NCBI GenBank assembly: GCA_014804605.1
Contig: JAAUZM010000005.1
Location: 127,619-173,128 of the forward strand
Source: Lachnospiraceae bacterium
Lineage (GTDB): Bacteria > Bacillota > Clostridia > Lachnospirales > Lachnospiraceae
Direction: 5' to 3'
DNA length: 45,510 nucleotides
Shown here: in pieces, positions 1 to 41,125 of the stretch
Layout: every line of letters begins with the position of its first letter
Numbering within the stretch: position 1 is the first letter of the stretch
The notes under the pieces: model-generated
Seen by the model: only the letters and a program-made list of their open reading frames with translations
The model's database searches: none
What the model was told of the DNA's origin: nothing
Position numbers and translations under genes: made by a program

Positions 1-72
1 ATTCAATTCTTAAAAGCAAGTAATAATTAGCTGGGGCATTTGAGTACCATTCATAGGCCAGCCAATACACCG

Positions 73-224
73 GCTCGGACGAAAGTGAATATCTTAAGGA
101 GCCCCTTAAAATGCGTCGGCACTTAGCGAGGTCATGAGTTGCAAAGCAACTCACGAGCTTAGTGTCCGTTACGCATTTTACGGAGCGAAAGCGCGGCTCC
201 GTAGATATTCACTTCCGTCCGAGC
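73..224 (+). repeat. Structured dispersed repeat, copy A (152 bp core, 22-bp terminal inverted arms, internal hairpins)
   Basis: Arms gctcggacgaaagtgaatatct / agatattcacttccgtccgagc (21/22 paired); internal ttaagg-agcc-ccttaa, aaaatgcgt...acgcatttt, gagttgc-aaa-gcaactc, cggagc...gctccg; same layout in three other copies. Confidence 0.93.
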
Positions 225-247
225 GGCAACCTTAGCCAATGTGAGTT

Positions 248-2089
248 CTATTTCTTACTCGCCGCCGAAATAGCCGCCCTCTTTCTAAGCGTCGGATCCA
301 AAATCTTCTTACGTATTCTGATCGTCTTCGGAGTCACCTCCAACAGCTCATCCGTATCAATAAACTCCAAAGCCTGCTCCAGACTCAAAACCTTCGGCGG
401 CGTGAGCCGCAACGCCTCGTCCGCGCTGGAGGAACGGGTGTTGGTGAGCTGCTTCTTCTTGCAAACATTCAGCTCGATGTCCTCGCCCCGTCCGTTCTGC
501 CCCACGACCATGCCGGAATATACCTTAGTGCCAGGACCGATGAAGAGCGTGCCACGCTCCTGTGCGTTGAAGAGACCGTAAGTGATCGCTTCGCCTGCCT
601 CGAAAGCGATGAGAGACCCCTGTTTGCGGTACTGGATATCTCCCTTGTAGGGACCGTAGCCGTCGAAAATGCTGTTCATAATGCCGTTGCCCTTGGTGTC
701 CGTCATGAACTCGCCGCGATAGCCGATCAGGCCGCGGGAGGGAATGGAGAACTCCAAGCGGCTGTATCCGCCGGAGGCAAGTCCCATGTTCAGAAGTTCA
801 CCTTTACGCTGACTTAATTTTTCAATGACAGTTCCGGAGAATTCTTCCGGCACATCTATATAACACAGTTCCATAGGTTCCAGTTTCTTGCCGTTTTCAT
901 CTGTCTTGTATAATACTTCCGCCTTGCTGACCGCAAATTCATACCCTTCACGGCGCATGTTTTCGATCAGAACGGATAGATGCAGCTCACCCCGTCCGGA
1001 GACCTTGAAGGCTTCCGTAGTCTCTGTTTCTTCCACCCGGAGGGAAACATCGGTATTTAACTCCTTAAACAGTCTGTCGCGCAGATGGCGGCTGGTCACA
1101 TACTTGCCTTCCTGCCCGGCAAGAGGAGAGTCGTTGACGATAAAATGCATAGCGATGGTTGGCTCGGAAATCTTCTGGAACGGAATCGGCTGCGGATGAT
1201 CGGGAGAACAGAGGGTGTCTCCGATATGGATATCCGAGATGCCGGAGATCGCCACGATGGAACCAATTCCGGCTTCCTCGACGTCTACTTTATTTAAACC
1301 GTCATATTCATATAATTTACTGACTTTGACTTTGCGCATCTTGTCGGGGTCGTGATGATTGACAATGACCACTTCCTGATTAACCTTGACGGAACCGTTG
1401 TCCACTTTGCCTACCCCGATACGTCCCACGTACTCGTTGTAGTCTATGGTACTGATCAGCACCTGTGTGCCGGCATCAGGATCGCCCGTGGGTGCCGGGA
1501 TATGCTTTAGGATCGTGTCGAAAAGGGGAGTCATGTCGCCGCCCTTCACGGTGAGCTGTGTGCTGGCGGTTCCCGCCTTGGCGGAGGCGTAGACGAAGGG
1601 ACAGTCTAACTGTTCGTCGTTGGCATCTAAGTCCATGAAGAGCTCCAGTACTTCATCTACCACCTGAATGGGTCTTGCTTCCGGACGGTCGCATTTATTG
1701 ATACATACGATTACGGATAAGTCCAGCTCCAGCGCTTTCTTCAGAACGAATTTCGTCTGGGGCATGGGACCTTCGAAAGCGTCCACGACGAGGATGACAC
1801 CGTTCACCATTTTGAGCACACGTTCCACCTCGCCGCCGAAGTCAGCATGTCCGGGAGTGTCGATGATGTTGATTTTTACACCCTTATACATAACGGCAGT
1901 GTTCTTGGACAGGATCGTGATACCGCGCTCTTTCTCGATATCATTGGAGTCCATGACACGTTCCGCAACTTCCTGATTTTCCCTGAAAACACCGCTCTGT
2001 TTTAACAGCTCGTCCACCAGCGTCGTCTTGCCGTGGTCAACGTGAGCAATGATCGCTATATTTCTTACATCTTCTCTTGTCTGGTTCAT
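248..2089 (-). CDS. typA: Translational GTPase TypA/BipA
   Basis: 613 aa; [42 protein letters not shown]-terminal BipA region. Confidence 0.97.
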
Positions 2090-2388: not shown

Positions 2389-2623
2389 GAACGGGTTGGC
2401 CAATGTATGAATGGTACCTCTGTTATAGTTGTCTGTGGCGGTATATCTATCCCGGGACATGTTTTTAGTCGCATAAAATCCGTAAACCTTCGGTTTTTCG
2501 ACGATGACCGCACAATTCCGCGACACTTAACAGTTCTATTCGGGTCGATTTTCTTATATATTGATAGTACAATACAAAAAGGAATTTCTATGAGCAATTC
2601 CACAGTGTAGAAGGGAGAAAAAC

Positions 2624-3971: not shown

Positions 3972-3995
3972 AATTTCAACAATAAAAATGGAGAT

Positions 3996-4215
3996 TGATA
4001 GAGGTTGCGTTTTTCATCAGTAGGAGTTTGGATGTTGCAGACACAGGTGAAGAGTTTCGAAAGGGGAAGACGCCGAAAGTGAGAGTTATCTGCGGATTCT
4101 CATCTTGGGCATACAGTTAAGAGCTGTATGACTGTCATCGAATCGATGGGGCGCTATCAGGTAAGTTAGAGTTAAAGCTGGCCCTGTGCGGTCAGTTTTC
4201 TTTTTGCGTAAGCGG
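3996..4215 (+). promoter_or_regulatory. Lysine riboswitch (L box) with downstream terminator-like expression platform
   Basis: gaggttgcg...catcagta...cgaaaggggaagacgccgaa...cttgggcatacagttaagagctgtatgactgtca; then aaagctggcc-ctgtgc-ggtcagttttctttttg; lies upstream of dapA. Confidence 0.9.
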
Positions 4216-4276: not shown

Positions 4277-5161
4277 ATGGCAATTTTTAAAGGAGCCGGA
4301 GTGGCGATCGTCACGCCGTTTCATGAAGATGGAAGCATTCATTATGAGAAATTTGAGGAACTGGTGGAGGAACAGATCGCGGGCGGCTCAGATGCAATCA
4401 TCGTGTGCGGCACGACAGGAGAGGCTTCCACACTGACGCATGAGGAGCATCTGGATCTGATCAGGTTCTGTGCCGAGAAGGTGAATGGCAGAGTGCCGGT
4501 TATCGCGGGTACAGGTTCTAACTGTACGAAGACGGCAGTATATCTGTCTACGGAGGCCGAGAAATACGGAGTGGACGGATTGCTTGTCGTGACACCTTAC
4601 TACAATAAAGCTACCCAGAAGGGATTATACGAGCATTTTAAAACCATTGCGGATTCCGTGAAACTACCCATTATTCTGTATAATGTACCAAGCAGGACGG
4701 GATGCAATATTCTCCCCCAGACAGTAGTGAAGTTATGCACGGAGGTCAGCAATATCGTGGCGATTAAAGAGGCCAGCGGAAATATTTCTCAGGTGGTGAA
4801 GCTGATGGCTTTAGCGGGCGGTAAGCTTGATCTGTATTCCGGCAATGACGATCAGGTAGTACCTCTGTTGTCACTGGGCGGCAAGGGCGTGATTTCTGTT
4901 GTGTCCAACGTAGCGCCGAGGCAGATGCATGACCTCTGTCAGAAATTTTTCGACGGTGATATAGAGGGCAGTATGAAGGAGCAGCTTCGTGTCATTGAAT
5001 TGTTTGACGCGTTGTTTTGTGAGGTGAACCCGATTCCGGTGAAAACGGCGATGAATCTGATGGGCAAGAATGTGGGACCGCTGCATATGCCGCTGTCCGA
5101 GATGGAGCCCGGGAATGTGGAGACGCTTAAAACCGCACTTGTCAATTACGGCATTTTATAG
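4277..5161 (+). CDS. dapA: 4-hydroxy-tetrahydrodipicolinate synthase
   Basis: 294 aa; GTTGEASTLTHEEH, TPYYNKATQKGLYEHF, YNVPSRTG, KEASGN. Confidence 0.97.
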   Translation: MAIFKGAGVAIVTPFHEDGSIHYEKFEELVEEQIAGGSDAIIVCGTTGEASTLTHEEHLDLIRFCAEKVNGRVPVIAGTGSNCTKTAVYLSTEAEKYGVDGLLVVTPYYNKATQKGLYEHFKTIADSVKLPIILYNVPSRTGCNILPQTVVKLCTEVSNIVAIKEASGNISQVVKLMALAGGKLDLYSGNDDQVVPLLSLGGKGVISVVSNVAPRQMHDLCQKFFDGDIEGSMKEQLRVIELFDALFCEVNPIPVKTAMNLMGKNVGPLHMPLSEMEPGNVETLKTALVNYGIL

Positions 5162-5233
5162 AAACAGTTTACAGTGTCTGTCATTATCTGTGGCAGACAC
5201 TTACCAATTAGAGCAGAGGGAGGAGTACACAAC

Positions 5234-5992
5234 ATGACCAGAGTAATTATGCATGGCTGCAACGGCAAGATGGGACAGACCATATCGGGATTGATTGCGG
5301 CGGATGAAGAGATAGAGATCGTGGCGGGAGTAGATGCTTACGATGAGGGCAAGAATTCGTACCCCGTTTTTTCCTTGATTGCGGATTGTGACGTGGCAGC
5401 GGACGCGGTCATTGATTTCAGTGCGGCAGCAGCAGTGGACGGACTGCTTAATTATTGTGTGGAGAAGCAGGTGCCCTGCGTGCTCTGTACCACGGGGCTG
5501 TCGGAAGCGCAGCTTGCTAAGGTGCAGGAGGCATCGAAGAAGGTGGCAGTCTTAAAATCAGCGAATATGTCTCTGGGGATCAACATGCTTCTCAAGCTGC
5601 TGAAGGAGGCGGCAGGGATTCTTGCACCAGCGGGATTCGATATTGAGATTGTGGAGAAGCATCACAACCAGAAAGTGGACGCGCCCAGCGGAACCGCGCT
5701 TGCGCTTGCGGATTCCATTAATGAGGAGCTAAGTAATGCTTATAATTATGTATATGACAGAAGTCAGACGAGAGAGAAGCGGGCACAGAAAGAGATCGGA
5801 ATCAGCGCGGTCAGAGGCGGTACCATCGTAGGAGATCATGATGTGATCTTTGCGGGTGCGGACGAGGTCGTGACCTTCTCTCACAGAGCATATTCCAAGG
5901 CGGTATTCGGCAAGGGTGCGATTCAGGCTGCCAAGTTTATTGCGGGCAAGCCGGCAGGAATGTATGATATGAGTGATGTAATTAATGAATAA
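5234..5992 (+). CDS. dapB: 4-hydroxy-tetrahydrodipicolinate reductase
   Basis: MTRVIMHGCNGKMGQTISG, EIVEKHHNQKVDAPSGTAL, GDHDVIFAGADEVVTFSHRAYS; ATG at 5234 after ggaggag. Confidence 0.97.
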   Translation: MTRVIMHGCNGKMGQTISGLIAADEEIEIVAGVDAYDEGKNSYPVFSLIADCDVAADAVIDFSAAAAVDGLLNYCVEKQVPCVLCTTGLSEAQLAKVQEASKKVAVLKSANMSLGINMLLKLLKEAAGILAPAGFDIEIVEKHHNQKVDAPSGTALALADSINEELSNAYNYVYDRSQTREKRAQKEIGISAVRGGTIVGDHDVIFAGADEVVTFSHRAYSKAVFGKGAIQAAKFIAGKPAGMYDMSDVINE

Positions 5993-33206: not shown

Positions 33207-33358
33207 GCACTGATGAAGATTAATATCTTAAGGAACCCCTTAAAAAGCGTCAGCGCTTAACGAGGTTCTGAGTTGCAAAGCAACTCACGAGTTTAGCGTC
33301 TGCTACGCTTTTTACGGAGCGAAAGCGCGGTTCCGTAGATATTAATCTTCATCTGTGC
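33207..33358 (+). repeat. Structured dispersed repeat, copy C
   Basis: Arms gcactgatgaagattaatatct / agatattaatcttcatctgtgc (21/22). Confidence 0.93.
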
Positions 33359-40973: not shown

Positions 40974-41125
40974 GCACAGAGGGAAGCTAATATCTACGGA
41001 ACCGCGCTTTCGCTCCGTAAAAAGCGTAGCAGATGCTAAACTCGTGAGTTGCTTTGCAACTCAGGACCTCGTTAAGCACTGACGCTTTTTAAGGGGTTCC
41101 TTAAGATATTAGCTTCCCTCTGTGC
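40974..41125 (-). repeat. Structured dispersed repeat, copy D (inverted orientation)
   Basis: Perfect 22/22 arms gcacagagggaagctaatatct / agatattagcttccctctgtgc. Confidence 0.94.

Follow-up and report, generated by a model that had tools for sequence, protein, structure and literature searches.

A dispersed repeat of Lachnospiraceae reads as an IS66-type MITE with a covarying interior

The repeat at the locus and its pairing

The window, which is the whole 45,510-nucleotide stretch of Lachnospiraceae DNA analyzed here, contains four copies of a dispersed repeat, A to C on the plus strand and D on the minus strand. Copies A and B belong to different subfamilies, lie in direct orientation about 2.2 kb apart and bracket a 613-aa ORF on the minus strand (248-2089), which, judged from its sequence, we take to be probably TypA/BipA. 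An ordinary lysine riboswitch (3991-4164) is located upstream of the ORFs at 4277-5161 and 5174-5992. The copies and their parts are as follows.

43-250, plus strand: copy A, entire element including its decayed ends (left end AGTACCATTCA at 43-53, right end decayed)
73-94, plus strand: copy A, 5' arm of the outer stem P1, from the 35-copy alignment
203-224, plus strand: copy A, 3' arm of P1, from the 35-copy alignment
98-103 (partner 195-200), plus strand: copy A, 5' strand of P2, alignment columns 26-44
104-116 (partner 171-183), plus strand: copy A, 5' strand of P3a, alignment columns 26-44
117-168, plus strand: copy A, core hairpin P3b, with stem 117-127/157-168
124/160, plus strand: T-T mismatch in the core hairpin of copy A
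165, plus strand: bulged T in the core hairpin of copy A
128-129/155-156, plus strand: tandem G-A in the core hairpin of copy A
135-153, plus strand: terminal hairpin of the core hairpin of copy A
185-192, plus strand: copy A, side hairpin P4 GCGAAAGC, with a GNRA-type loop
2222-2418, plus strand: copy B, short-loop subfamily, with its interior at 2252-2388
2222-2232 and 2408-2418, plus strand: decayed terminal repeats of copy B
33207-33358, plus strand: interior of copy C, P1 to P1'
40974-41125, minus strand: interior of copy D, P1 to P1'

A preliminary description of this DNA had read the internal stem P3 in copies A to D with a bulged T and a T-T mismatch (positions 165 and 124/160 in copy A), five pairs changed on both sides, and a T/A swap in the stem below P3. 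These stems were read correctly, and both the double changes and the swap are real. Copy A alone folds with a z-score of -8.9, and consensus folding by RNAalifold, which had been proposed as a check, recovers the same main stems.

An alignment of 35 copies from the genome of the window extended these observations. P3 (columns 45-58/82-96) forms standard pairs in 35/35 rows, with several pairs changed on both sides. Across the whole structure, 97.8% of pair cells hold standard pairs, as compared with 91.3% in the shuffled alignment, and pairing falls to 33-46% when the partner is slid by 1-3 columns. Changes on both sides occur in 29 of 61 pairs, and the covariation score is 0.212 versus 0.097 in shuffles, a value reached by none of 500 shuffles. 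The repeat thus shows the covariation expected of a structured RNA, above both the shuffles and the slid controls, and the stem observation exceeds chance. The sequence of P1 is wholly different between subfamilies and genera, yet it is paired in each. In three copies (L019, L026 and L032), the P3a stem has an additional inserted hairpin, AAAGTAAATTTCTTCGAAATTAACTTT.

The preliminary description also held that the bulge and the mismatch are both conserved, and a larger set of copies separated the two. The mismatch is T-T in all 128 readable cores (63/63 from the same genome and 65/65 from other Lachnospiraceae), a count in which the regular expression pre-set the 5' T and 18 differently shaped cores were unreadable. 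By contrast, a bulged T or C is found in 53 of the 63 copies read in the genome of the window. Among the 65 copies read from other Lachnospiraceae, 31 show the bulge, 20 are perfectly paired at this place and 14 carry a mismatch, mostly A-C. The bulge, which the preliminary description had used as evidence for a binding site, is a subfamily trait with no conservation beyond that subfamily. The refutation named there, further copies in which these features are not kept, came true for the bulge and not for the mismatch. Two further features had escaped the preliminary description. A tandem G·A (5'-YGAR/5'-YGAR) adjoins the T-T mismatch; it is invariant in 35/35 aligned copies of the genome and its flanking pairs covary, and in some lineages (for example L079 and L081) it is swapped for an ordinary stem. 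The GNRA-capped side hairpin is retained in nearly all copies.

Ends, transposase partner and distribution

The element spans about 200-260 bases and occurs in about 60 dispersed copies in the 4.6-Mb genome of the window, that of a gut-type bacterium (46 BLAST matches and about 62 strong covariance-model matches). Conservation runs outward past P1, and the copies are bounded by terminal inverted repeats GTWACWRTTCA, which take the form GTTACTTTTCACAC or GTTACTGTTCAGAC in this genome and GTAACAGTTCAGCC in several other genera. Target duplications of 8 bp flank copies in this genome (CATTTCGT and GACAAAC[T/C]) and in others (AATTGTTA, GAGCTGTT, AACCGTTG and GACTTCCG). An internally deleted derivative (L270:3098-3181, same genome) still has the two ends, flanked by an exact 8-bp duplication, TTATTTCT; its deletion joins two short CAG repeats.

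A candidate source of the mobilizing activity was found in another genome, G091, which carries an autonomous, divergent IS66-family element with ends GTTACTTTTCACGGGGTGGGGAA and a 581-aa IS66-like transposase. This protein scores 64 bits against PF03050 (cut-off 23.1) and 137 bits against NCBIfam NF033517, which is below the cut-off of 180. The 23-bp ends of the autonomous element are the same as those of the MITE copies in that genome: the 23-mer is found, with no more than 6 mismatches, at one or both ends of 13 of 15 MITE copies, and in 5 of the 15 the two 8-bp duplicates agree at 7-8 positions (chance about 2e-14). Ends of the form GTTACTGTTCA recur in related elements of other Lachnospiraceae, one of which has an exact 8-bp duplication, GCCGGAAT.

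The repeat therefore shares with the IS66 family and its MITEs the 8-bp target duplications, the terminal inverted repeats of 20-odd bp and, in the autonomous partner, a DDE transposase matching PF03050. It differs in that the canonical IS66 end is GTAAGCG (PMC11946415), whereas the ends here are GTTAC/GTAAC and the transposase falls under the NCBIfam IS66 cut-off; given these ends, we call the element IS66-like rather than canonical IS66. It differs further in its conserved interior, which is missing from the autonomous element. Indeed, the fold is absent from every autonomous element examined, so that it is not needed for their transposition, and the idea of an autonomous element carrying the fold was rejected, as none matched. 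Y1/RAYT transposases were likewise rejected as mobilizer: the Y1 gene is present in 26 of 52 genomes with the element and in 62 of 98 without it (p = 0.12), it is not flanked by the element, and cores were found in 2 of 26 Y1 loci.

By its ends and duplications, the repeat reads as a MITE of the IS66 type whose interior covaries, most likely moved in trans by an IS66-like transposase of the same bacterial family. That it is a transposable element goes beyond the interpretation given in the preliminary description. No intact IS66-like transposase partner was found in the genome of the window, which makes present mobility there doubtful.

The covariance model detected the element in 52 of 150 sampled Lachnospiraceae genomes, about one third, often with at least 20 copies, and a DNA search of 16 genomes from other families of the same order gave no match. 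A pattern scan of the GTDB species genomes returned at least 100 records; the named records among the matches listed belong to Lachnospiraceae or to unclassified Clostridia and bacteria. So far, the MITE has been found only in Lachnospiraceae. A model of the core hairpin only matched 11 of 392 genomes of the class, 10 in Lachnospiraceae and 1 outside. The latter, G481 (L323 and L333), belongs to another family of the class; its core hairpins, 12 in number and near-identical, have a long loop and give the impression of a recent burst or transfer.

Rfam 15 has no family matching the element or its interior. In eight loci (L413:1308-1474, L006:2001-2167, L013:1217-1383, L015:1786-1952, L382, L397, L381 and L437), a TwoAYGGAY RNA (RF01731) lies about 66-350 nt from the element, in every case 5' of the element and on the strand opposite to it. 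The TwoAYGGAY RNA is itself repeated, with inverted repeats GGCAGATTGC..GCAATCTGCC at its boundaries, and may be a mobile foldback repeat too. A fixed composite unit of the two was rejected, since the spacers fail to align.

Strand, orientation and the candidate explanations

Wobble pairs in P1 distinguish the two strands. G·T outnumbers A·C by 37:11 in copies of the window's genome and by 47:17 in other genomes (84:28 combined; p about 2e-4 for each set, with cells taken as independent), suggesting that one particular strand, whose core reads CTTARYGAGGT..CGARYTTAG, is under pressure to fold. Hardly any G-U or other wobble pairs are found in P3, a pattern uncommon in RNA and one that DNA would fit.

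The core hairpin also occurs outside the MITE. Lone cores are placed in leaders and between operon genes, and 29 are sense versus 7 antisense to genes (p = 3e-4), while the MITE copies are oriented at random (31 sense versus 34 antisense to both neighboring genes); both counts used genes called by a simple longest-ORF rule, which is crude. Two lone cores start at the stop codon, in atpG-atpD (L314) and pgk-tpiA (L329), with the genes read from sequence. Together with those of L091, L316 and L325, these free-standing cores, from Butyrivibrio-like and other genomes, stand after stop codons or between operon genes, singly or in tandem with a spacing of about 44 nt.

Pairing persists where the ends do not. 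Copies whose ends have decayed retain 18.8 of 20 P1 pairs, as compared with 19.4 of 20 where the ends are intact, indicating that the fold persists after mobility is lost; part of this may come from gene conversion among the copies, which could keep interiors alike while the ends decay. At L023 in the genome of the window and L379 in genome G100, the element lies upstream of the same gene in both species, with P1 unlike and well paired. The flanks have diverged too far for a clean empty site to be recognized in sister genomes, and two separate insertions may account for the pair.

The explanation that we favor, with somewhat better than even confidence, is an IS66-type MITE whose interior folds as RNA and docks a host factor. 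As the sequences show, the repeat is a non-autonomous foldback MITE, most likely mobilized in trans by the IS66-like transposase of Lachnospiraceae. They also show that its interior of about 140-150 nt folds into one long branched hairpin with compensatory changes, whose pairing stays intact even where the ends have decayed. The core strand would fold single-stranded, most likely as RNA in read-through transcripts, a step that the data support. Finally, we infer that the T-T/tandem G-A hairpin is a putative module at which a host ribonuclease or RNA-binding factor docks, and that relatives would also employ this module as free-standing hairpins in leaders and operon gaps. Its presence may make the MITE tolerable within transcripts, for instance through controlled RNA processing or stabilization. 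We thus propose an RNA-level role of the fold. The preliminary description had suggested a protein- or ligand-binding fold rather than a plain terminator. A plain terminator is indeed not what the repeat looks like, with no U-run and with copies randomly oriented to neighboring genes. A protein-binding RNA is the most plausible reading of the inner hairpin, since this hairpin is also found by itself, for the most part in sense orientation close to genes; a small-molecule ligand finds no support in this analysis.

The same IS66-type MITE might instead use its fold as single-stranded DNA, the top strand being extruded, for example on the lagging-strand template, and the extruded hairpin being exploited for transposition or excision by a hairpin-recognizing DNA-binding protein. 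Tandem G-A and GCGAAAGC hairpins are very stable as DNA as well. Along with this stability, the strictly Watson-Crick P3 and the random orientation of the MITE relative to genes fit such a reading. Nevertheless, the fold is missing from autonomous elements that share these ends, the Y1/RAYT transposases, which are known hairpin readers, show no association with the element, and the lone cores favor the sense strand of genes. We consider this reading unlikely.

Less probable still is that the fold has no present function, in which case the copies would be young or gene-converted and the palindrome a by-product of the foldback origin of the MITE. Subfamilies of near-identical copies do exist, and most copies have a P1 that is almost a perfect palindrome. 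However, the T-T mismatch and the tandem G-A persist, although arm-templated repair would erase them, the core is conserved family-wide and found outside MITEs, and the strand asymmetry of the wobble pairs would be left unexplained. A classical cis-regulatory RNA for the neighboring genes (terminator, attenuator or riboswitch), to which the reasoning of the preliminary description would lead, is very improbable: strong covariation, conserved non-canonical positions and the lone cores in leaders and intercistronic gaps are in its favor, but random orientation largely refutes it for the MITE form, where a terminator or leader of the neighboring gene was rejected on this ground, no U-run follows the fold, the terminal repeats and target duplications mark an insertion, and the neighbors share no obvious function and Rfam offers no match.

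Related repeats and significance

MITEs with RNA-like folds are already known from other bacteria. Correia (NEMIS), RUP and BOX elements are non-coding repeats scattered over their genomes, able to fold as RNA and probably mobilized in trans. The element resembles them as a dispersed, RNA-foldable and probably trans-mobilized non-coding repeat (PMC3049150 treats pneumococcal repeats and PMC2229807 small mobile sequences); it differs in its ends, duplications and hosts, and its internal hairpin is common to free-standing, gene-adjacent hairpins. The bcr1-bcr3 repeats of Bacillus cereus, which are MITE-like, are dispersed, 100-400 bp long, present in tens per genome and often located in UTRs or operon gaps (PMC3446304, PMC6542083), and the element is similar in these respects. 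However, bcr mobility is tied to TTTAT motifs in another host group, whereas the element here has IS66-type ends and variable 8-mer duplications, with no TTTAT-associated insertion of the bcr1 kind. The lone core resembles REP/REPIN elements, with their RAYT (TnpAREP), in being a short, imperfect hairpin that occurs in many intergenic copies, some of them in tandem. The element shows no RAYT association, however, and in its MITE form it is bounded by terminal repeats and flanked by 8-bp duplications. By analogy, the element would work like bcr1-type or Correia-type structured repeats, with the ends of an IS66-like MITE. No earlier description of a Lachnospiraceae MITE of this kind appeared in the open literature searched, which took in few subscription papers and no preprints, or in Rfam 15.

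Taken together, the element connects mobile DNA, a likely transposase and a conserved hairpin module near host genes. A broader and more tentative idea, to which we give rather less than even weight, is that Lachnospiraceae possess an RNA hairpin code, in which one host factor would read the T-T/G-A hairpin in leaders and gaps of housekeeping operons and IS66-type MITEs would have hijacked it. If this is true, the MITEs spread the hairpin to dozens of new places per genome. The finding raises the testable question of whether a bacterial MITE carries an RNA fold in order to be tolerated inside transcripts, or whether the fold has been exapted there. Dozens of natural copies and their covarying variants, in cultivable species, provide ready material for binding and decay assays.
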